This document shows, one piece after another, positions 48,363 to 53,975 of a stretch of DNA of 64,000 bases. The translations under genes were made by a program, and so were the position numbers. The notes under the pieces were generated by a model that worked only from the letters and a program-made list of their open reading frames with translations, did not search any database and had not been told where the DNA came from. Where the stretch lies: NCBI RefSeq assembly GCF_016925535.1, contig NZ_CP070496.1, positions 1,116,001-1,180,000 on the forward strand, given 5' to 3'. Source of the stretch: Natronoglycomyces albus. Its GTDB lineage: Bacteria; Actinomycetota; Actinomycetes; Mycobacteriales; Micromonosporaceae. The stretch's first letter is position 1, and each line of letters starts with the position of its first letter.

Positions 48363-48860
48363 GGAGGTCAAGACCTTCCGAGCGAAGAGGGAAATTCGGA
48401 ACGGACTTACTTTACCGTCTGAGGTTTGTGAGTTGTCATTTCGGTATTGCCTGCCTGAGAATTCCTCGCAGGTGTGACTTCGGGTCCCTGTGTCGGCCCG
48501 TGTCCCTGGGCCCCGGATGGCAAAGCACGGTGACCTCGCCAAAGGCTGTGGTGTCCAACAGGTCCGCTTTGGCCTTCACCGTAAGCGCCCTTCGGCGAAA
48601 CCGTGCCTTTGAACATGGGGTGCGCAGCGGCGATGGCCCCCGGCCGTACACCCAGATTTAGGGACTCAGGTGCCGGGCTGCTCTCTGTAGGAGAGGTTCA
48701 TTGAACATCACCAGATGCCAGATGCGGAGGGTTGGCATTGCCCACGCAAGAAGAATGGATAGATCTGCCAAAAAACGTGTCTTTCGAGTATTGAAGTGAA
48801 AATGAGTCCAACGCCCCTGAAACACTGTTTGGCTGGATTTTTCTCATACGTGCGCAAAAG
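48363..48860. other. Intergenic stretch, ~500 bases, no supported gene
   Basis: Short frames on both strands lack ribosome sites and family-like sequence. The kinase promoter should lie in its left part, but I see no convincing boxes. The right part (48700-48860) is AT-richer than the genome average, like the XRE cassette next to it. Confidence 0.35.
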
Positions 48861-48889
48861 AGCGACCCTCACCATCAGCGAAGGTCGCT
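48861..48889 (-). terminator. Terminator of the XRE-DUF397 operon
   Basis: The stem AGCGACC/GGTCGCT is followed on the minus strand by TCTTTTG. Confidence 0.55.
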
Positions 48890-48934
48890 ATACTGCGGAA
48901 ACGACCAAGTCTCCGCCGCCTGGCTGCTAACCCG

Positions 48935-49111
48935 TTAGCGCCGGGCGGCGCGCAGCAGACTCGTGAAGTCACCGTCAGCGAGGTCGAAGACCGGTGACGC
49001 ATCGCCCAGCTTCGAATCCCGCACCTGGAACGCGCCCGTACGGCGTGCTTCAACGCAGTTTTGGGCACCACCCCCACTGCTACGGCTCGACTTGCGCCAT
49101 TCATGAGTCAT
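48935..49111 (-). CDS. DUF397 protein
   Basis: 58 residues from the ATG at 49111 (THEWRKSSRSSGGGAQNCVE), with GAGGAG seven bases upstream. The WRKSSRSSGGGAQNCVE start and VRDSK are diagnostic of DUF397, small proteins found almost only in actinobacteria next to XRE/DUF5753 regulators. The start overlaps the end of the XRE gene by 11 bases. The pair may act together as in the BldB/AbaA-type or antitoxin-like regulator sets, but the mode here is unknown. Confidence 0.86.
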   Translation of the reverse strand: MTHEWRKSSRSSGGGAQNCVEARRTGAFQVRDSKLGDASPVFDLADGDFTSLLRAARR

Positions 49112-49949
49112 ATAGATACTCCTCAATTGTTACGGTCATTGCTTGTGTCGCAGCGAAGACCTCTTTGTGTAGTGAGACTACTGGGCTATTTTCCACGTAG
49201 CGGCAGCCGTCAAGTGCATCGAGGAACAAGAATGTGCCACCGTCAGCGTCCAGGATATTGAACCCGTGTCCAGCACCTGGGTGCAGTCCCTTGGGAACGG
49301 AGATGTTCACTTTCGGGTTTTCCGCGAGTTCTAGCAACCGCCTCACTTGGCTGTCTCGCACCTCTGGGTCGAGGAGATGCAGGTATCGAATTGCGCCTGG
49401 CCCCACGATGAATTCCATGTGAGGAAGTTCGGCTCTGCTGTACATAAGTTGCTGACGGCGGCTCCTGAGATCGCGGATTGACGCTAGGACGTCTTCGGGG
49501 ACATGGGCCTGTGCCGCCTGTAGGGCTGCGAGGTATTCGGGAGTCTGTAGCAGCCCTGGGATGAGCTCGGATTCGAGGACTCGGATGTGTTCCGCGACCT
49601 GCTCAGTCTCTAGGAACATAGGGAATGCGGGGTTTACCACTGAGCCTGATCCAGCATCGAAGTAGGGCTCCCACCACCCGCGTTCGTTGCTCCTCACCCG
49701 GAGTGTATGCAGGTAGCTGCGTTCAACGCCGGTGATACCGAGATGTTCGCAAATAGCGTCGAGCTGGTGTTTTTTAACGCCTTGGGCGCCAGATTCGATG
49801 CGAACGATCGTGTTGCGGTGTTGGTCGAGCGCGGCTTGAGCTACTTGGCCCGGTGTCTCTCCCCTCATTCCGCGGGCCTTAGTCAGCCTCATGCCGAGGG
49901 CCCGTCGAGCCAGCGTAGGGCCCGGGATCTTACTTTCGTGTCTATCCAT
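49101..49949 (-). CDS. XRE-family regulator with DUF5753 domain
   Basis: 282 residues. The N-terminal helix-turn-helix of the Cro/C1 type covers ~15-75 (LTKARGMRGETPGQVAQAAL, then NTIVRIESGAQGVKKHQLDAICEHLGI). A DUF5753 sensor-like domain follows at ~95-275 (YFDAGSGSVVNPAFPMFLETEQ, ELIPGLLQTPEYLAAL). It is transcribed with the DUF397 gene and is divergent from four small overlapping genes. The 290-base gap holds direct repeats that are its likely targets. No Shine-Dalgarno sequence is evident before the ATG, so it may be leaderless. Confidence 0.9.
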   Translation of the reverse strand: MDRHESKIPGPTLARRALGMRLTKARGMRGETPGQVAQAALDQHRNTIVRIESGAQGVKKHQLDAICEHLGITGVERSYLHTLRVRSNERGWWEPYFDAGSGSVVNPAFPMFLETEQVAEHIRVLESELIPGLLQTPEYLAALQAAQAHVPEDVLASIRDLRSRRQQLMYSRAELPHMEFIVGPGAIRYLHLLDPEVRDSQVRRLLELAENPKVNISVPKGLHPGAGHGFNILDADGGTFLFLDALDGCRYVENSPVVSLHKEVFAATQAMTVTIEEYLYDS

Positions 49950-49974
49950 GCCCTAGTGTCGCATATGCCGTGTG

Positions 49975-49999
49975 CGTTTCGCACTTATACGTTTCGCAC
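49975..49999. promoter_or_regulatory. Direct repeats CGTTTCGCAC, candidate XRE operator
   Basis: Two exact 10-base copies lie at 49975-49984 and 49990-49999, with a 15-base period. The first is part of GTGCG-TTT-CGCAC. They sit 26-50 bases upstream of the XRE start, in the divergent promoter region. Confidence 0.5.
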
Positions 50000-50162
50000 A
50001 TGCACACAATGTGCAGCGCGTTTCCTCTACCAAAGTGCTAGGAACAGCCCTTATCGTCGTGTCATGCCCGATGTGGGCACCCTGCCCAACGTTGGCGAGG
50101 TAGGGACGGGTTGCTGGCTTTGGAGACCCCCGGGGCCACTCTCGATGTAGCCAACACACAAT

Positions 50163-50215
50163 GGCCCGCCGCTAGGACCAAAAGATTTCGCGGTCTCACA
50201 TCCCGGCGGCGGGCC
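50163..50215 (+). promoter_or_regulatory. Structured leader hairpin before the small-gene operon
   Basis: GGCCCGCCGC (50163-50172) pairs with GCGGCGGGCC (50206-50215). The loop has an inner GACC/GGTC pair. The right arm ends 7 bases before the AGGAGG of the first small gene, so folding could influence translation or terminate upstream transcription. Confidence 0.45.
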
Positions 50216-50239
50216 TCTTCACAGGAGGTTAGAGCTCCC

Positions 50240-50464
50240 ATGCCATCTGAAACGATACTGGTCGATGAGCGCCTTGGGCAACTCCAGACGCATTTGCATC
50301 TGCATGTTCCACGTCCTGCGTGGTGGGGGCTGCGGTGTGGCTACTGCCGGGAGCGGTGGGTACGGGGCGCGTGCCCCACCAAACGCGACGCACTCGTGGC
50401 AATTAACGCCCACCGGGCTCGCATGTCCTCGACCACGGCGCTACCGGCAGGTGAGGCGCTGTGA
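50240..50464 (+). CDS. Small Cys-pair (zinc-ribbon-like) protein of the XRE-linked operon
   Basis: 74 residues from the ATG at 50240, with AGGAGG 11 bases upstream. It contains LRCGYCRERW followed by GACPTKRDAL. This is one CxxC plus a lone Cys, so a partial zinc ribbon at best. LQTHLHLHVPRP before it is His-rich and could supply further metal ligands. I know of no firm family match. It is first of four genes with overlapping ends, and the next starts at the GTGA of its stop. Confidence 0.62.
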   Translation: MPSETILVDERLGQLQTHLHLHVPRPAWWGLRCGYCRERWVRGACPTKRDALVAINAHRARMSSTTALPAGEAL

Positions 50465-50739
50465 ACCAAAAAACAACACCGTCATCTGTAGTGGAATTTC
50501 AATTCGCGGGGGACACCTACATGGTCTGGCCACACTCACATCGTGGCCGCACGGTCCTGCTGACGCTCCAGGCCCGCACTTCCGCCATTGCCGTCGCCAA
50601 GATGATCGCCCGGCGCGGACTCATCACTGACATTGAGTGGGAGACACCATTCTCCGGCCGTTCCCAGGAATGGCGCGACACGCTGCGAACGCTAGTGCAA
50701 TCGCACGCGGCCACGCAGCTAGCCGAGGTATCACGATGA
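50461..50739 (+). CDS. Unknown 92-residue protein of the XRE-linked operon
   Basis: It starts at a GTG overlapping the previous stop (GTGA). The sequence is soluble and mixed alpha/beta, for example VVEFQFAGDTYMVWPHSHR and WRDTLRTLVQSHAATQLAE. I recognise no motif. The next gene begins in its stop (ATGA), so translation of all four genes is coupled. Confidence 0.55.
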   Translation: MNQKTTPSSVVEFQFAGDTYMVWPHSHRGRTVLLTLQARTSAIAVAKMIARRGLITDIEWETPFSGRSQEWRDTLRTLVQSHAATQLAEVSR

Positions 50740-50996
50740 GCGATCGAATCCTCGGCACATATGTGGGAACGGTCCTTATGGGACACCGCTACCCGCTTTA
50801 CGCACAGGGCAGGCCCGACGTTGTCGATATCTATCGCAGCGATGAGACCACCAAGCCACCCATTGGCCGGGCCCAGCTGACTGCAACGGGAAGCTGGTAC
50901 TTCACCTGGGCCATCTTCGGTGACGGCAGCGGAGCATGGATTGCCGCCTTCCGCGAACAGTTCGAGACGATCATGGCCCAGCGAACCGATGAATGA
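50736..50996 (+). CDS. Unknown 86-residue protein of the XRE-linked operon
   Basis: It starts at the ATG of an ATGA overlap. It has several aromatic residues and a beta-rich look (ILGTYVGTVLMGHRYPLYA, TGSWYFTWAIFGDGSGAW). I recognise no motif. It overlaps the following gene by 8 bases. Confidence 0.55.
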   Translation: MSDRILGTYVGTVLMGHRYPLYAQGRPDVVDIYRSDETTKPPIGRAQLTATGSWYFTWAIFGDGSGAWIAAFREQFETIMAQRTDE

Positions 50997-51144
50997 GACA
51001 CCACTAACCGCTGTCGCGATCGCAGCCGCTCTCCTAGCCGTGGCCGCATTCCTATGGTCACCACTGTGGAGATACCGCATCCGCTGGGCCATCATCGGTC
51101 TGGCGCTCATCGCCGCAACAACAACGCTTTACTACGAGACCTAG
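50989..51144 (+). CDS. 51-residue small membrane protein
   Basis: It starts at the ATG at 50989. Two hydrophobic helices (LTAVAIAAALLAVAAFLW and WAIIGLALIAATTTLYY) are joined by a short basic turn (RYRIRW), the layout of small hairpin membrane proteins. It is the last gene of the four-gene operon. A hairpin at 51279 follows. Confidence 0.55.
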   Translation: MNETPLTAVAIAAALLAVAAFLWSPLWRYRIRWAIIGLALIAATTTLYYET

Positions 51145-51278
51145 AGGCTGATGCAAATGGCATTGTCGGCGTTCTCATCGGCTTGTTGAGGAGCGTCAAC
51201 TTCGCCATCTACGGCCTCGAAGGCGCACTTTCGCGCAAGCTTCGTCATGACCAGGCCCATAGCGTTCCCTTCACAGCC

Positions 51279-51316
51279 TCAGTGGCCCCAGCAACGGAAA
51301 GCGCTGGGGCCACTGA
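51279..51316. terminator. Bidirectional terminator
   Basis: A 14-bp perfect stem (TCAGTGGCCCCAGC) with a 10-base loop lies between the small-gene operon (+) and the trehalose gene (-). Confidence 0.75.
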
Positions 51317-51398
51317 CGGTTGAGCAGCATATTTAGGTAGATATTTAACCTAGCGAGGGTAAACCCAGGCCATACACCCATGGCCAAACCAAACGAAA

Positions 51399-53975
51399 CT
51401 AGCGTTTACCCAGCTTGTCCAACAGCAACGCCACCCGGATAAGACCGAGGTGCGAGTATGCCTGCGGGTGATTGCCCAGCCCGTGCTCGGCGACCGGATC
51501 CCACTGCTCGGCCAAAAGGCCAGTCGGTCCCGCACAAGCCAGAATCTGATCGAAGAGCTCTTCGGCGTCGGCGCGGCGCCCGACCTGCACGTAGGCCTCG
51601 GCCAGCCACGCCGCACACAGCACGAAGCCCCCTTCGCCGCCGGGAAGCCCGTCGTCACGGTGGTAGCGGTAAACGGTCGGCCCGGAACGCAGCCCAGCTT
51701 CGATGGCGAGCACAGTTTGCAAATAGCGCGGGTCATCCGGGGGTACGAGGCCCGAGAGACCGACCCACAGTGAGGCCGCGTCGAGGTCGTCGTCTCCGTA
51801 CGCGGCGGTGTAGGCCCCCACGGTCTCGTTGAACCCCAGTTCGAGGATGTTGTTGGCGATGTTCTCGCGCAGCTTGTCCCAACCGGGCTTGGACTCCATG
51901 CCGTAATGCTCCGACACATACAGAGCCCTATCGACGGTCAACCAACACATCACCTTGGAGAAGACGTGGTGGCGGGGGGCCTGCCGGGCCTCCCAAATGC
52001 CGTGGTCGGGTTCGTGCCAGCGCCTCTCGACCGCCTCGACCATCGAGGAGAGGATGGTTTCCTCAAACTCGGTGACGTGTCCTCGGCGCTCGGCCACGGC
52101 CACAACCAGGTCGGCTACGGGGCCGAACACGTCTAGCTGTACTTGTTTGTTGGCGGCGTTGGACACGCGGACGGGACGTGACCCGGCATAGCCGGGCAAG
52201 GTGTCGATGATGGCCTCTGGTCCCGCGTGATGGCCCTCGATGTCGTACAGGGGTGCCAGTCGCTCGGGGTGACCAGCGGTACGGTCGATAATGCCGGCCA
52301 TCCACTCGAAGAATCCTTCGGCCTCCCGCAGTGAACCGAGGTCGACCAGTGCCTTTGCCGTCATGGCCGCGTCACGGACCCAGCAGAAGCGGTAGTCCCA
52401 GTTGCGTACGCCGCCCAGTTCCTCGGGCAACGAGGTGGTGGCGGCGGCGAGGAAGGCTCCGGTGGGTTGGTAACACAGGCCCCGCAACGCAAGGGCGGAG
52501 CGTTCGATCATCTCCGGCTCGATCGCGGGAAGTTTGAGGGAATCGGCCCAGTTGCGCCAGTGCGCCTCAGTGGTGCGGCGGCGCACCCCCACATTTGCGT
52601 CGACGGGGGAGAAGTCGTCCACACCGCACAGCAGTTCTAGAATGAGCGATTCGCCGTGCTCGGTCAGGTCGACCTCGGCGGTGGCGGTGGCGTGTTGGCC
52701 ATCGGTCTCAATCGTCCAGTCCACCCCAGGCGAACACAGCGTCATGGGCTCGTTGGCCCCGAGAATTTTGAGCCCGTTGTCTCCCACCGGTTGCAGTTGC
52801 ACCGAGATCTGCCCGAATTCGGGGCGCGGAGCGAAGGTGATCTTGGCGGTTGTGTGCCCGCTAATTTCGCGCACGAGCACAGTCGCGTTCAGGTCGCCCT
52901 TGCGACGAGGCGTGGAGTCGAGCCAGTCGGTGACCGTGAGGCCCGCCCAGCGCGTCTCCACGGTCATAGTGCCGGGCCGGTAACGCTGACCCAGCGGGAT
53001 GCCTTGGCTGACCGGCTGCACGGTGAAGTGACCGGCGGGCGTGCCACCGAGCAAGTCGGCGAAGACCGCGCCGGAGTCCGGGCGCGGGTGGCACATCCAG
53101 GTTATTTTCGCATCCGGTGAGACCAACGCTGTGTTGGAACCGTCCGCCAGCATCGAGTGGCGTTCGATGAGTTGCGCGTCCTCGCCCTTGAGCCACGATT
53201 GGCGAATTTCCACCAGGTCCGCTAGGAGCCGGGCGACCGCTTCGGGGTCCTCGATGGTGAAGTTGGCCTTGGTCTGTCCGTCACCGACTTTGACACCGAT
53301 GTCGGGGCCGGTCAGGTGCGCGAACGCGTTTTCGTCCGTGACGTCGTCGCCGATGAACAACACCGCTGAGGCACCAAGCTGGTGCCGCAGTTGGTCCAGC
53401 GCGTCGCCCTTATGCGTGGCGACCACGGACAGGTCGATGACGGACTTGCCAGCGGTGACTTGAACCCCGTCCCACGAGGCGGGGCCGTGGCGCACCGCCG
53501 ATATTGCCTCGGCTGCGTCCTGCCCGGACGCGGTGCGGGTGTGTAGCGCGGCTCCGGCGGGCTTGGACTCGACTTTGGTTCCGTCGAATCGTTCGGCGAT
53601 CGCCTTAAGTTCGGCGACCAGTTTGTCTCGGCGGCTCTGATCTTCAGCCGACAGCGCGCGGGTGAAGTCGACGTCGAATTCGGATCCATGCGATCCGACT
53701 AGATGCACTTCGGAGGGCAGGCGGGAGAGTGCGGCCAGGTCGCGCAGGGCACGCCCGGATATGACAGAGACTTTGGTTTGCGGCAGGTTGGCCAGGGTTC
53801 GCAGGGCCGAGACAGACTCGGGAATCGGTTTCGCCTGGGAGGGATCGGTGACGATGGGGGCAAGAGTGCCGTCGTAGTCGCAGGCGATTAGCAGCTGCGG
53901 CACACGTGCCAACTTGGTGAGCGCTTCGCGCAGCTCGTCATCGAAGGCACGGGACGGCCGTGTCGGTGAGGTCAT
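51399..53975 (-). CDS. otsB: Trehalose-6-phosphate phosphatase fused to GH15 glycoside hydrolase
   Basis: 858 residues. The N-terminal ~255 residues are an HAD-type trehalose-phosphatase: D33-YDGTLAP (nucleophile), SVISGR and GDDVTDENAF. The rest (~270-855) is a GH15 domain of the glucoamylase/trehalase type, with WDYRFCWVRDA and a late LAEQWDP segment. The phosphatase makes trehalose. The GH15 half could hydrolyse it, or another glucoside. GH15 trehalases are known in mycobacteria. Such fusions occur in actinobacteria. otsA lies directly upstream on the same strand, 127 bases away. Whether both activities are retained is not testable here. Confidence 0.9.
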   Translation of the reverse strand: MTSPTRPSRAFDDELREALTKLARVPQLLIACDYDGTLAPIVTDPSQAKPIPESVSALRTLANLPQTKVSVISGRALRDLAALSRLPSEVHLVGSHGSEFDVDFTRALSAEDQSRRDKLVAELKAIAERFDGTKVESKPAGAALHTRTASGQDAAEAISAVRHGPASWDGVQVTAGKSVIDLSVVATHKGDALDQLRHQLGASAVLFIGDDVTDENAFAHLTGPDIGVKVGDGQTKANFTIEDPEAVARLLADLVEIRQSWLKGEDAQLIERHSMLADGSNTALVSPDAKITWMCHPRPDSGAVFADLLGGTPAGHFTVQPVSQGIPLGQRYRPGTMTVETRWAGLTVTDWLDSTPRRKGDLNATVLVREISGHTTAKITFAPRPEFGQISVQLQPVGDNGLKILGANEPMTLCSPGVDWTIETDGQHATATAEVDLTEHGESLILELLCGVDDFSPVDANVGVRRRTTEAHWRNWADSLKLPAIEPEMIERSALALRGLCYQPTGAFLAAATTSLPEELGGVRNWDYRFCWVRDAAMTAKALVDLGSLREAEGFFEWMAGIIDRTAGHPERLAPLYDIEGHHAGPEAIIDTLPGYAGSRPVRVSNAANKQVQLDVFGPVADLVVAVAERRGHVTEFEETILSSMVEAVERRWHEPDHGIWEARQAPRHHVFSKVMCWLTVDRALYVSEHYGMESKPGWDKLRENIANNILELGFNETVGAYTAAYGDDDLDAASLWVGLSGLVPPDDPRYLQTVLAIEAGLRSGPTVYRYHRDDGLPGGEGGFVLCAAWLAEAYVQVGRRADAEELFDQILACAGPTGLLAEQWDPVAEHGLGNHPQAYSHLGLIRVALLLDKLGKR

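Follow-up and report, generated by a model that had tools for sequence, protein, structure and literature searches.

What do four short, overlapping genes do opposite a pair of regulators of a much expanded actinobacterial kind, and how are they controlled? The question is raised by a locus of Natronoglycomyces albus (assembly GCF_016925535.1; genome size 4.0 Mb) that lies in the window analysed here, 64,000 nucleotides (nt) of contig NZ_CP070496.1 (positions 1,116,001 to 1,180,000, forward strand). A gene for an XRE regulator with a DUF5753 domain and a DUF397 gene, overlapping by 11 nt, stand divergent from four small genes, orf1 to orf4 (Table 1). This arrangement had been proposed in an initial annotation, as had an overlap of 4-8 bases between each small gene and the next; all six genes lie where they had been placed, the Pfam assignments are clear and the successive overlaps are 4, 4 and 8 nt. 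The leader hairpin, the box downstream of the orf1 start codon and the paralogues described below were absent from that account of the cassette. We find that the cassette is one of a family of small-gene operons linked to regulators, a larger set than earlier noted, whose members were seen in the window genome, Glycomyces and one metagenome bin only. Its regulators are of a known kind, and neither the leader signature nor the effector proteins had a description in the sources searched.

The regulators form a large paralogous set, with 15 genome-wide matches to DUF5753 and 19 to DUF397. Thirteen of the 15 DUF5753 loci face small genes, to which we assign a putative effector role (L-numbers denote individual loci in the window genome, Glycomyces or the metagenome bin). 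The facing genes begin with orf1 in four cases (the window, L009, L010 and L011), consist of orf2-orf3 in five (L012, L049, L050, L051, L052) and are other small genes in four (L130, L131, L134, L135); L132 and L133, also read as DUF5753 loci, have no facing small genes of such kind. The third gene of L131 matches the third gene of L130 (91%). The genome contains 4 matches to orf1, 18 to orf2 and, in addition to the copies at the window, L009 and L010, 13 to orf3. L009 carries orf1, orf2, two orf3-like genes and a gene for a 51-residue membrane-type protein. Eight orf2-orf3 pairs are found away from DUF5753 loci (L053-L060), and L061 is a partial copy. Several of L053-L061 have long upstream and downstream stretches in common, with a weaker leader hairpin and without the +13 box introduced below; some adjoin, by look, WXG100-like or lipoprotein-like genes, and a duplicated segment is common to L055 and L056. 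Tandem two-domain DUF397 genes were seen at L011:5045-5560 and L078:2481-2756 and, by eye, also at L174 and L176.

Relatives of orf1 are present in 20 of 22 Glycomyces genomes (49 matches), and the named collection yielded 21 Glycomyces orf1 loci and the one from the metagenome bin, L078. The N. albus and Glycomyces orf1 proteins are linked by hhalign (94.5%). No homology to N. albus orf2 or orf3 was detected for the second and third Glycomyces genes, and homology was detected between Gb and the second gene of L016 and L078 (90%). Regulators in divergent orientation were classed at 47 of the 49 places: 13 loci face XRE with DUF397 and 8 face GntR/UTRA (neither count has a chance expectation behind it), one faces an XRE gene at a contig end, and 25 have none by profile, a class in which 19 loci were judged on roughly 1.3-1.5 kb of upstream sequence and one, L159, on 2 nt. 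A larger XRE-like gene, outside the reach of the profile, is present at L189 and L190. L078 faces XRE and a double DUF397, and its second and third genes resemble those of L016 (= L081), which faces GntR. Because similar genes are carried under XRE in one locus and GntR in the other, the facing operon forms a separate unit that often comes under a divergent regulator, and the regulator that faces orf1-led operons is exchangeable. The suggestion that the same arrangement would recur beside XRE-DUF397 pairs held in its general form (13/47 Glycomyces loci, 13/15 DUF5753 loci of the window genome); the exact four-gene set was found in the N. albus genome only (the window, and L009 with its second orf3-like gene). 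In three Glycomyces loci, L187, L188 and L189, orf1 heads an operon that counts four to six small, mostly overlapping genes, and by eye those of L187 and L189 terminate in a membrane-type protein.

Outside this range, searches with few candidates scored per genome gave no orf2 in 100 further genomes of the family and 297 of the order, and no orf3 in 393 other genomes of the class. The order and class searches scored just 13-17 first-look candidates per genome, and the orf3 class search missed the known window, L009 and L010 copies, so the absences of orf1-3 beyond the family are soft. A weak orf1 match lies in a 734-residue frame of another genus (G096), and another contains a stop codon (G469).

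This scatter of copies raises the possibility that each cassette is a selfish or dispersing unit with its own leader, and that regulators were picked up by chance. One Glycomyces genome carries seven dispersed orf1 cassettes, the 18 orf2 matches noted above lie in a single genome, the similarity of most orf2 copies stops near the last stop codon, and several types of upstream context occur. However, no integrase or terminal repeats were noticed, and where regulators were counted they adjoin orf1 divergently, the only orientation sought. An empty-site test found no comparable site, the flanking gene being present in 2 of 22 genomes. The small genes are also under purifying selection: ratios of nonsynonymous to synonymous substitution (dN/dS) were 0.18-0.5 between three orf1, three orf2 and two orf3 paralogues of the window genome (one pair saturated) and 0.03-0.56 across all small-gene pairs tested, which argues that these are constrained genes and not chance open reading frames (ORFs). 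We give the selfish-unit explanation very little probability.

The operons share more than their genes. A GC-rich hairpin, P1, usually lies 20-28 nt 5' of the first start codon. Allowing up to one mismatch, P1 has 10-14 pairs at this set place in 8 of 9 XRE-linked cassettes of the window genome, 11-13 pairs in 17/17 leaders from Glycomyces and the bin, and 7-9 pairs in nine stand-alone N. albus copies, whose starts were picked by hand. Control leaders reached at best 9 pairs at the P1 place (0/95 with 10 or more), and 5/95 had stems of at least 10 when the place was left free. Further Glycomyces loci had a hairpin of 8-15 bp in 20 of the 23 looked at, and L130 has a 15-bp hairpin 33 nt before its start. 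The stem sequences vary between loci. Across 21 leaders, RNAalifold recovered a 10-bp stem in which 6 of 10 pairs are changed on both sides, compared to 2.7 in shuffled alignments (reached by 1/500). Paired cells (95.6% vs 84.0% shuffled) and covariation (0.281 vs 0.091) each exceeded all 500 shuffles, and there were 17 double-changed cells against 3.6; the number of pair types was not above shuffles. Covariation was clear in alignments A10 and A11, whose rows were chosen to align and, for A11, leave out main-type Glycomyces, L012, L049, L051, L052 and the stand-alone leaders. A second element, P2, in which the Shine-Dalgarno sequence pairs with bases just before the start codon, was present in 34 of 41 orf1-first leaders (2/4 in those of the window genome) compared to 20 of 247 controls.

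A covariance model of the leader, R1, was built to end at the start codon with no coding bases beyond. At E <= 1 in the N. albus genome it finds exactly the four orf1 cassettes, all of them R1 training rows. Among the Glycomyces genomes, 20 of 22 contain matches (98 at E <= 0.01), and the two without are the two that lack orf1. Forty R1 matches away from orf1 were taken for counts, while L212, L216, L217, L218, L222, L225 and L228 were read and left uncounted; 39 of the 40 end on a start codon, partly by construction of R1. By eye, the genes behind these 40 leaders are of two main kinds, short genes facing XRE and genes for proteins of 91-525 residues. Two proteins of the latter kind were tested and matched no Pfam family. 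In L229-L268, L212, L216-L218 and L228 we saw Glycomyces proteins of up to 525 residues behind the same leader; many begin M[VA]xxS[LV]R[QE]N, and some contain YDWAGRRLFL.

Some of the genes for 91-525 residue proteins lie near WXG100-like genes, and by eye some stand-alone orf2-orf3 copies adjoin such genes as well. The cassette genes could thus be accessory parts of type VII secretion loci (WXG100/EspC-like) under a common leader. Pfam WXG100 was matched at L009 (5.1e-4), L216 (8.2e-5) and L057 (0.066), but all three matches are under the curated cut-off, and the candidates at L217 and L055 have none. A WXG100-like neighbour was not noticed beside the window cassette, and the frequency of such neighbours has no chance comparison behind it. 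We consider this explanation highly improbable.

A further element of the signature lies within the coding sequence. The pattern ANNNTA occurs exactly at positions +13 to +18 in 75 of 83 leader-bearing genes, which include many related copies and so are not independent counts, compared to 1 of 318 controls, whose start codons were called by our own script. By group, this +13 box is present in 6/6 orf1 genes and remnants of the window genome, 14/14 Glycomyces genes of the main type, 21/23 of the XRE/GntR/bin type and 34/40 non-orf1 genes, where L256, moved manually in search of a reading frame, is scored as a miss. R1 holds no coding bases beyond the start codon, yet the box is carried by 34/40 of the non-orf1 genes taken from its matches. 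Codon 6 of the 83 genes is CTA in 43, GTA in 21 and ATA in 11, whereas only 15 of 197 Leu/Val/Ile codons at positions 7-19 end in TA; the constraint at +13 therefore acts on bases and not on residues. Taken together, the leader signature is statistically strong. It and the effector proteins are undescribed within Rfam (no match at E <= 1 over 48800-51400), the protein libraries and limited literature searches.

On the other strand, ANNNTA reads TANNNT, an actinobacterial -10 box; TANNNT is given as the -10 consensus of Streptomyces coelicolor promoters in the part of PMC4895711 that we consulted. The box is not simply the promoter of a divergent gene, because 9 of the 14 Glycomyces loci of the main type have an upstream gene that runs in the same direction. 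A predicted antisense RNA from this box would begin near the start codon, run across the ribosome site and end at P1, and would measure 66-95 nt without tail (median 74). The 10 nt 5' of P1, U-rich on the other strand, are 35-44% A in the box-carrying groups compared to 21% in control leaders.

These signals lead us to a tentative reading, to which we give close to an even chance, in which the operon is under dual control: XRE-DUF397 would act on transcription, a cis-antisense RNA on orf1 translation, and the gene overlaps would couple orf2-orf4 to orf1. As in studied relatives, the XRE protein would bind the intergenic region and set transcription of the operon, with DUF397 as modulator. A promoter on the opposite strand, within orf1 codons 5-6, would give rise to a short RNA (about 75 nt) spanning the start codon, ribosome site and leader, which would terminate at P1 and block translation of orf1 on the mRNA. 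Through the stop/start overlaps, a block of orf1 would silence all four genes. One of their products is predicted to be zinc-knuckle-like, two to be small proteins of beta-sheet and helix, and the last to be tiny and of membrane type.

Two loci suggest that what counts in orf1 is its start, through which the operon would be entered, and this would give the gene overlaps a role. In L051 and L052 the body of orf1 is lost, and the hairpin, the start codon and the +13 box are kept. The remnants are frames of 33 and 13 codons whose overlaps with orf2 measure 8 and 4 nt.

Several results weigh against dual control through an antisense RNA, besides the relatedness of the 83 genes and the script-called control starts. 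No consistent -35 element was found over the family: in 37 non-redundant cases, TTG is at spacing 16 in 6, but at spacing 23 in 7 and 24 in 5. There is no strong U run after P1 on the antisense strand, and 5' of P1 the stand-alone copies are rich in T where the box-carrying groups are rich in A. The box is absent from all 11 leaders formed by the nine stand-alone copies, L012 and L049, and its count excludes L050, L130, L131, L134 and L135. In L050 the hairpin is missing from its usual position, and L131, L134 and L135 have no stem of at least 9 bp. In the first, poorly aligned set (A9), RNAalifold found no pairs and double-changed pairs were at shuffled level (4 vs 4.1); A9 was weak because MAFFT placed the stems out of register. 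On the transcriptional side, the 10-bp direct repeat between the XRE gene and orf1, a candidate operator in the window, is absent from the other eight intergenic regions examined, including paralogous loci, and no operator common to the XRE loci was found in the intergenic regions compared. Finally, no known fold or function for orf1-4 was recognised in the sequence and structure searches described below.

The same leader could instead act on the sense strand only, with P1 and P2 bound by a protein (perhaps the orf1 product) or serving as an attenuator, and with the +13 box as a second RNA or DNA binding motif and not a promoter. Covariation in P1, the excess of P2 in orf1-first leaders and the lack of a clear antisense -35 are all in line with such a cis-regulatory RNA. 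So is the P1 loop, which carries TTGG or CCAA in 22/23, 11/14 and 23/40 leaders of three Glycomyces sets compared to 3.2, 2.2 and 6.9 in shuffles, although in the N. albus orf1 group the motif (2/6 vs 0.9) is not well above shuffles. However, some loops carry the motif in one orientation and some in the other, which would be hard to reconcile with a single-strand protein site. Conservation in the box falls on the bases by which TANNNT is defined on the opposite strand and leaves the NNN between them free, and L051 and L052 retain the box without the orf1 body. We regard a purely sense-strand element as unlikely, though as an alternative to be taken seriously.

Returning to the antisense reading, it may extend well beyond the window. 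It is possible, if somewhat short of an even chance, that a portable 5' module (P1 leader, ribosome-site hairpin and predicted antisense promoter in codons 5-6) heads many unrelated accessory genes in Glycomyces and N. albus. Each gene would have its own cis-antisense RNA, the divergent regulator would be XRE-DUF397, GntR/UTRA or none, codon 6 would be forced to a Leu, Val or Ile codon ending in TA, and the window operon would be one carrier among many.

The four small proteins had been called unfamiliar, and this stands: none of orf1-4 matched a family over cut-off in Pfam, NCBIfam or PHROGs, and PADLOC models matched neither the six window proteins nor three Glycomyces proteins. The further description of a compact, regulator-linked accessory cassette also agrees with our results, as it has no described relatives in the libraries searched. 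In orf1, one His, three Cys and one Trp are kept in alignments of 12 and 11 rows, giving a zinc-knuckle-like pattern, part of which is missing by eye in some further Glycomyces copies such as L183. AlphaFold2 models of orf2 and orf3 reached a mean predicted local distance difference test (pLDDT) of 85.3 and 83.0; with these models, Foldseek gave no match at E <= 0.001 and the VIA Z was never above 5.2. Rows for PUR, polo-box and Ugi in the structure lists for orf2 and orf3 were not counted as evidence. A sequence search of the PDB returned nothing for orf2, stray xylanase stretches for orf3 (best E 0.011) and TFIIE at E 0.65 only for orf1, and these were set aside. The label of two-helix membrane protein for orf4 refers to two hydrophobic stretches read from the sequence alone. 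Membrane-type proteins of 51 residues like orf4 also terminate L009, L011 and L131; in L131 the gene begins about 360 nt after the preceding one.

Defence and conjugation had been offered as possible functions. Neither found support: there was no PADLOC match, and tblastn detected no relative of orf1 or orf2 in 72,556 plasmid records. Single-protein tblastn against 50,697 phage records likewise gave no relative of orf1, and no integrase or transfer gene was seen by eye among the window ORFs, where neighbours were viewed as ORFs without a Pfam scan.

The absence of a PADLOC match also bears on the idea that the locus is a type II toxin-antitoxin or antiphage system, in which XRE would be the antitoxin and the toxin would be either DUF397 or the small membrane protein. 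XRE-DUF397 pairs have been proposed as type II toxin-antitoxin systems (in the parts consulted of PMC10364602 and PMC6262351), and a tiny membrane-type protein terminates four of the loci. However, according to the portion of PMC10364602 consulted, none of 14 S. coelicolor pairs behaved as toxin-antitoxin in that 2023 study. In addition, L010 showed no recognisable counterpart of orf4, and neither, by eye, did most of the Glycomyces operons. We judge such a system improbable.

The locus instead has the marks of the WhiJ/BldB type: an XRE helix-turn-helix regulator (with DUF5753) followed by DUF397, a paralogous set, and a facing gene across an intergenic region. DUF5753 is presumably also present in WhiJ. 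From the sections of PMC10294661 available to us, the closest studied locus is WhiJ9-BldB9-iosA of Streptomyces venezuelae, which likewise combines an XRE (WhiJ) and DUF397 (BldB) pair, many paralogues, an adjoining small effector gene and a shared intergenic region. WhiJ9 is described there as binding direct repeats between the genes and as required for iosA activation upon loss of BldB; overexpression of iosA blocks sporulation, and IosA resembles no solved structure (PMC10294661). Because of this parallel and the negative toxin-antitoxin result on 14 pairs, we favour transcriptional control of the WhiJ/BldB kind. Unlike the iosA locus, the window has a facing operon whose small genes overlap and match none of the families searched, and the comparison is one of gene arrangement. 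P1 and the +13 box are present here but unmentioned in those sections of PMC10294661, in which the iosA mRNA is leaderless. By analogy with IosA and AbaA in Streptomyces, the orf1-4 products most likely act jointly as an accessory effector that would be off until a signal.

The same regulator pair occurs in Scr1/Scr2 and other S. coelicolor XRE-DUF397 pairs, studied, in the parts of PMC6262351 and PMC10364602 consulted, for antibiotic production and control of differentiation. The facing genes seem untreated in PMC10364602, where the words divergent, adjacent and upstream are missing from the main text. For the proposed antisense control, the excerpts of PMC4485353 that we used describe how plasmid pMV158 is controlled both by a repressor protein and by an antisense RNA. 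Its copG-repB/RNAII system resembles the present prediction in pairing a repressor with a short cis-antisense RNA and in having a GC-rich terminator hairpin just upstream of a translation start. It differs in that pMV158 controls plasmid replication, whereas the loci here are many and that of the window is chromosomal, and in that the antisense promoter predicted here would lie inside a reading frame.

Table 1. Features of the window locus (positions are those of the 64,000-nt window).
Feature	Position	Strand	Basis
DUF397 (BldB-like), 58 residues	48935..49111	-	Pfam PF04149 9.6e-14
XRE / HTH_31 + DUF5753 (WhiJ-like) regulator, 282 residues	49101..49949	-	PF19054 1.1e-26, PF13560 1.1e-6
Candidate XRE operator: two direct copies of CGTTTCGCAC with a period of 15	49975..49999		Not seen in eight other intergenic regions
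Hairpin P1 of the leader, with a GC-rich stem of 10 bp and a loop of 33 nt; orf1 start 24 nt downstream	50163..50215	+	Covariation on 21 leaders
Hairpin P2: Shine-Dalgarno GGAG + CTCC paired, just 5' of ATG	50224..50238	+	Leader counts
orf1, 74 residues, His-Cys-Cys-Cys zinc-knuckle-like pattern	50240..50464	+	ORF and alignments
Antisense -10-like box TATCGT; sense ACGATA at +13..+18, orf1 codons 5-6	50252..50257	-	Motif
Possible antisense -35 TTGCCC, spacing 18, weak	50276..50281	-	Motif; family-wide -35 inconsistent
Predicted cis-antisense RNA over orf1 start codon, ribosome-binding site and P1; approximate ends	50150..50245	-	Inferred from signals
orf2, 92 residues, GTG start, predicted beta5-alpha-alpha	50461..50739	+	ORF and AlphaFold2
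orf3, 86 residues, predicted beta5-alpha	50736..50996	+	ORF and AlphaFold2
orf4, 51 residues, two hydrophobic stretches	50989..51144	+	ORF, read from sequence

Downstream of the operon, a dispersed repeat occupies window positions 51144-51260, beginning at the end of orf4. Its first part matches 16 further places in the genome (76-86%), and copies also occur in the stretches around cassettes L010, L049, L053 and L055.

XRE-DUF397 proteins are much expanded actinobacterial regulators whose targets are mostly open; genomes that have BldB carry a median of 19 BldB paralogues, according to the part of PMC10294661 consulted. The loci described here are compact units of regulator and target, with paralogues in one genome and a natural swap to GntR, which makes the link between the two directly testable. 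If the antisense reading is true, one short module would silence the translation of dozens of unrelated accessory genes, and an overlooked codon constraint would make such genes findable by sequence.

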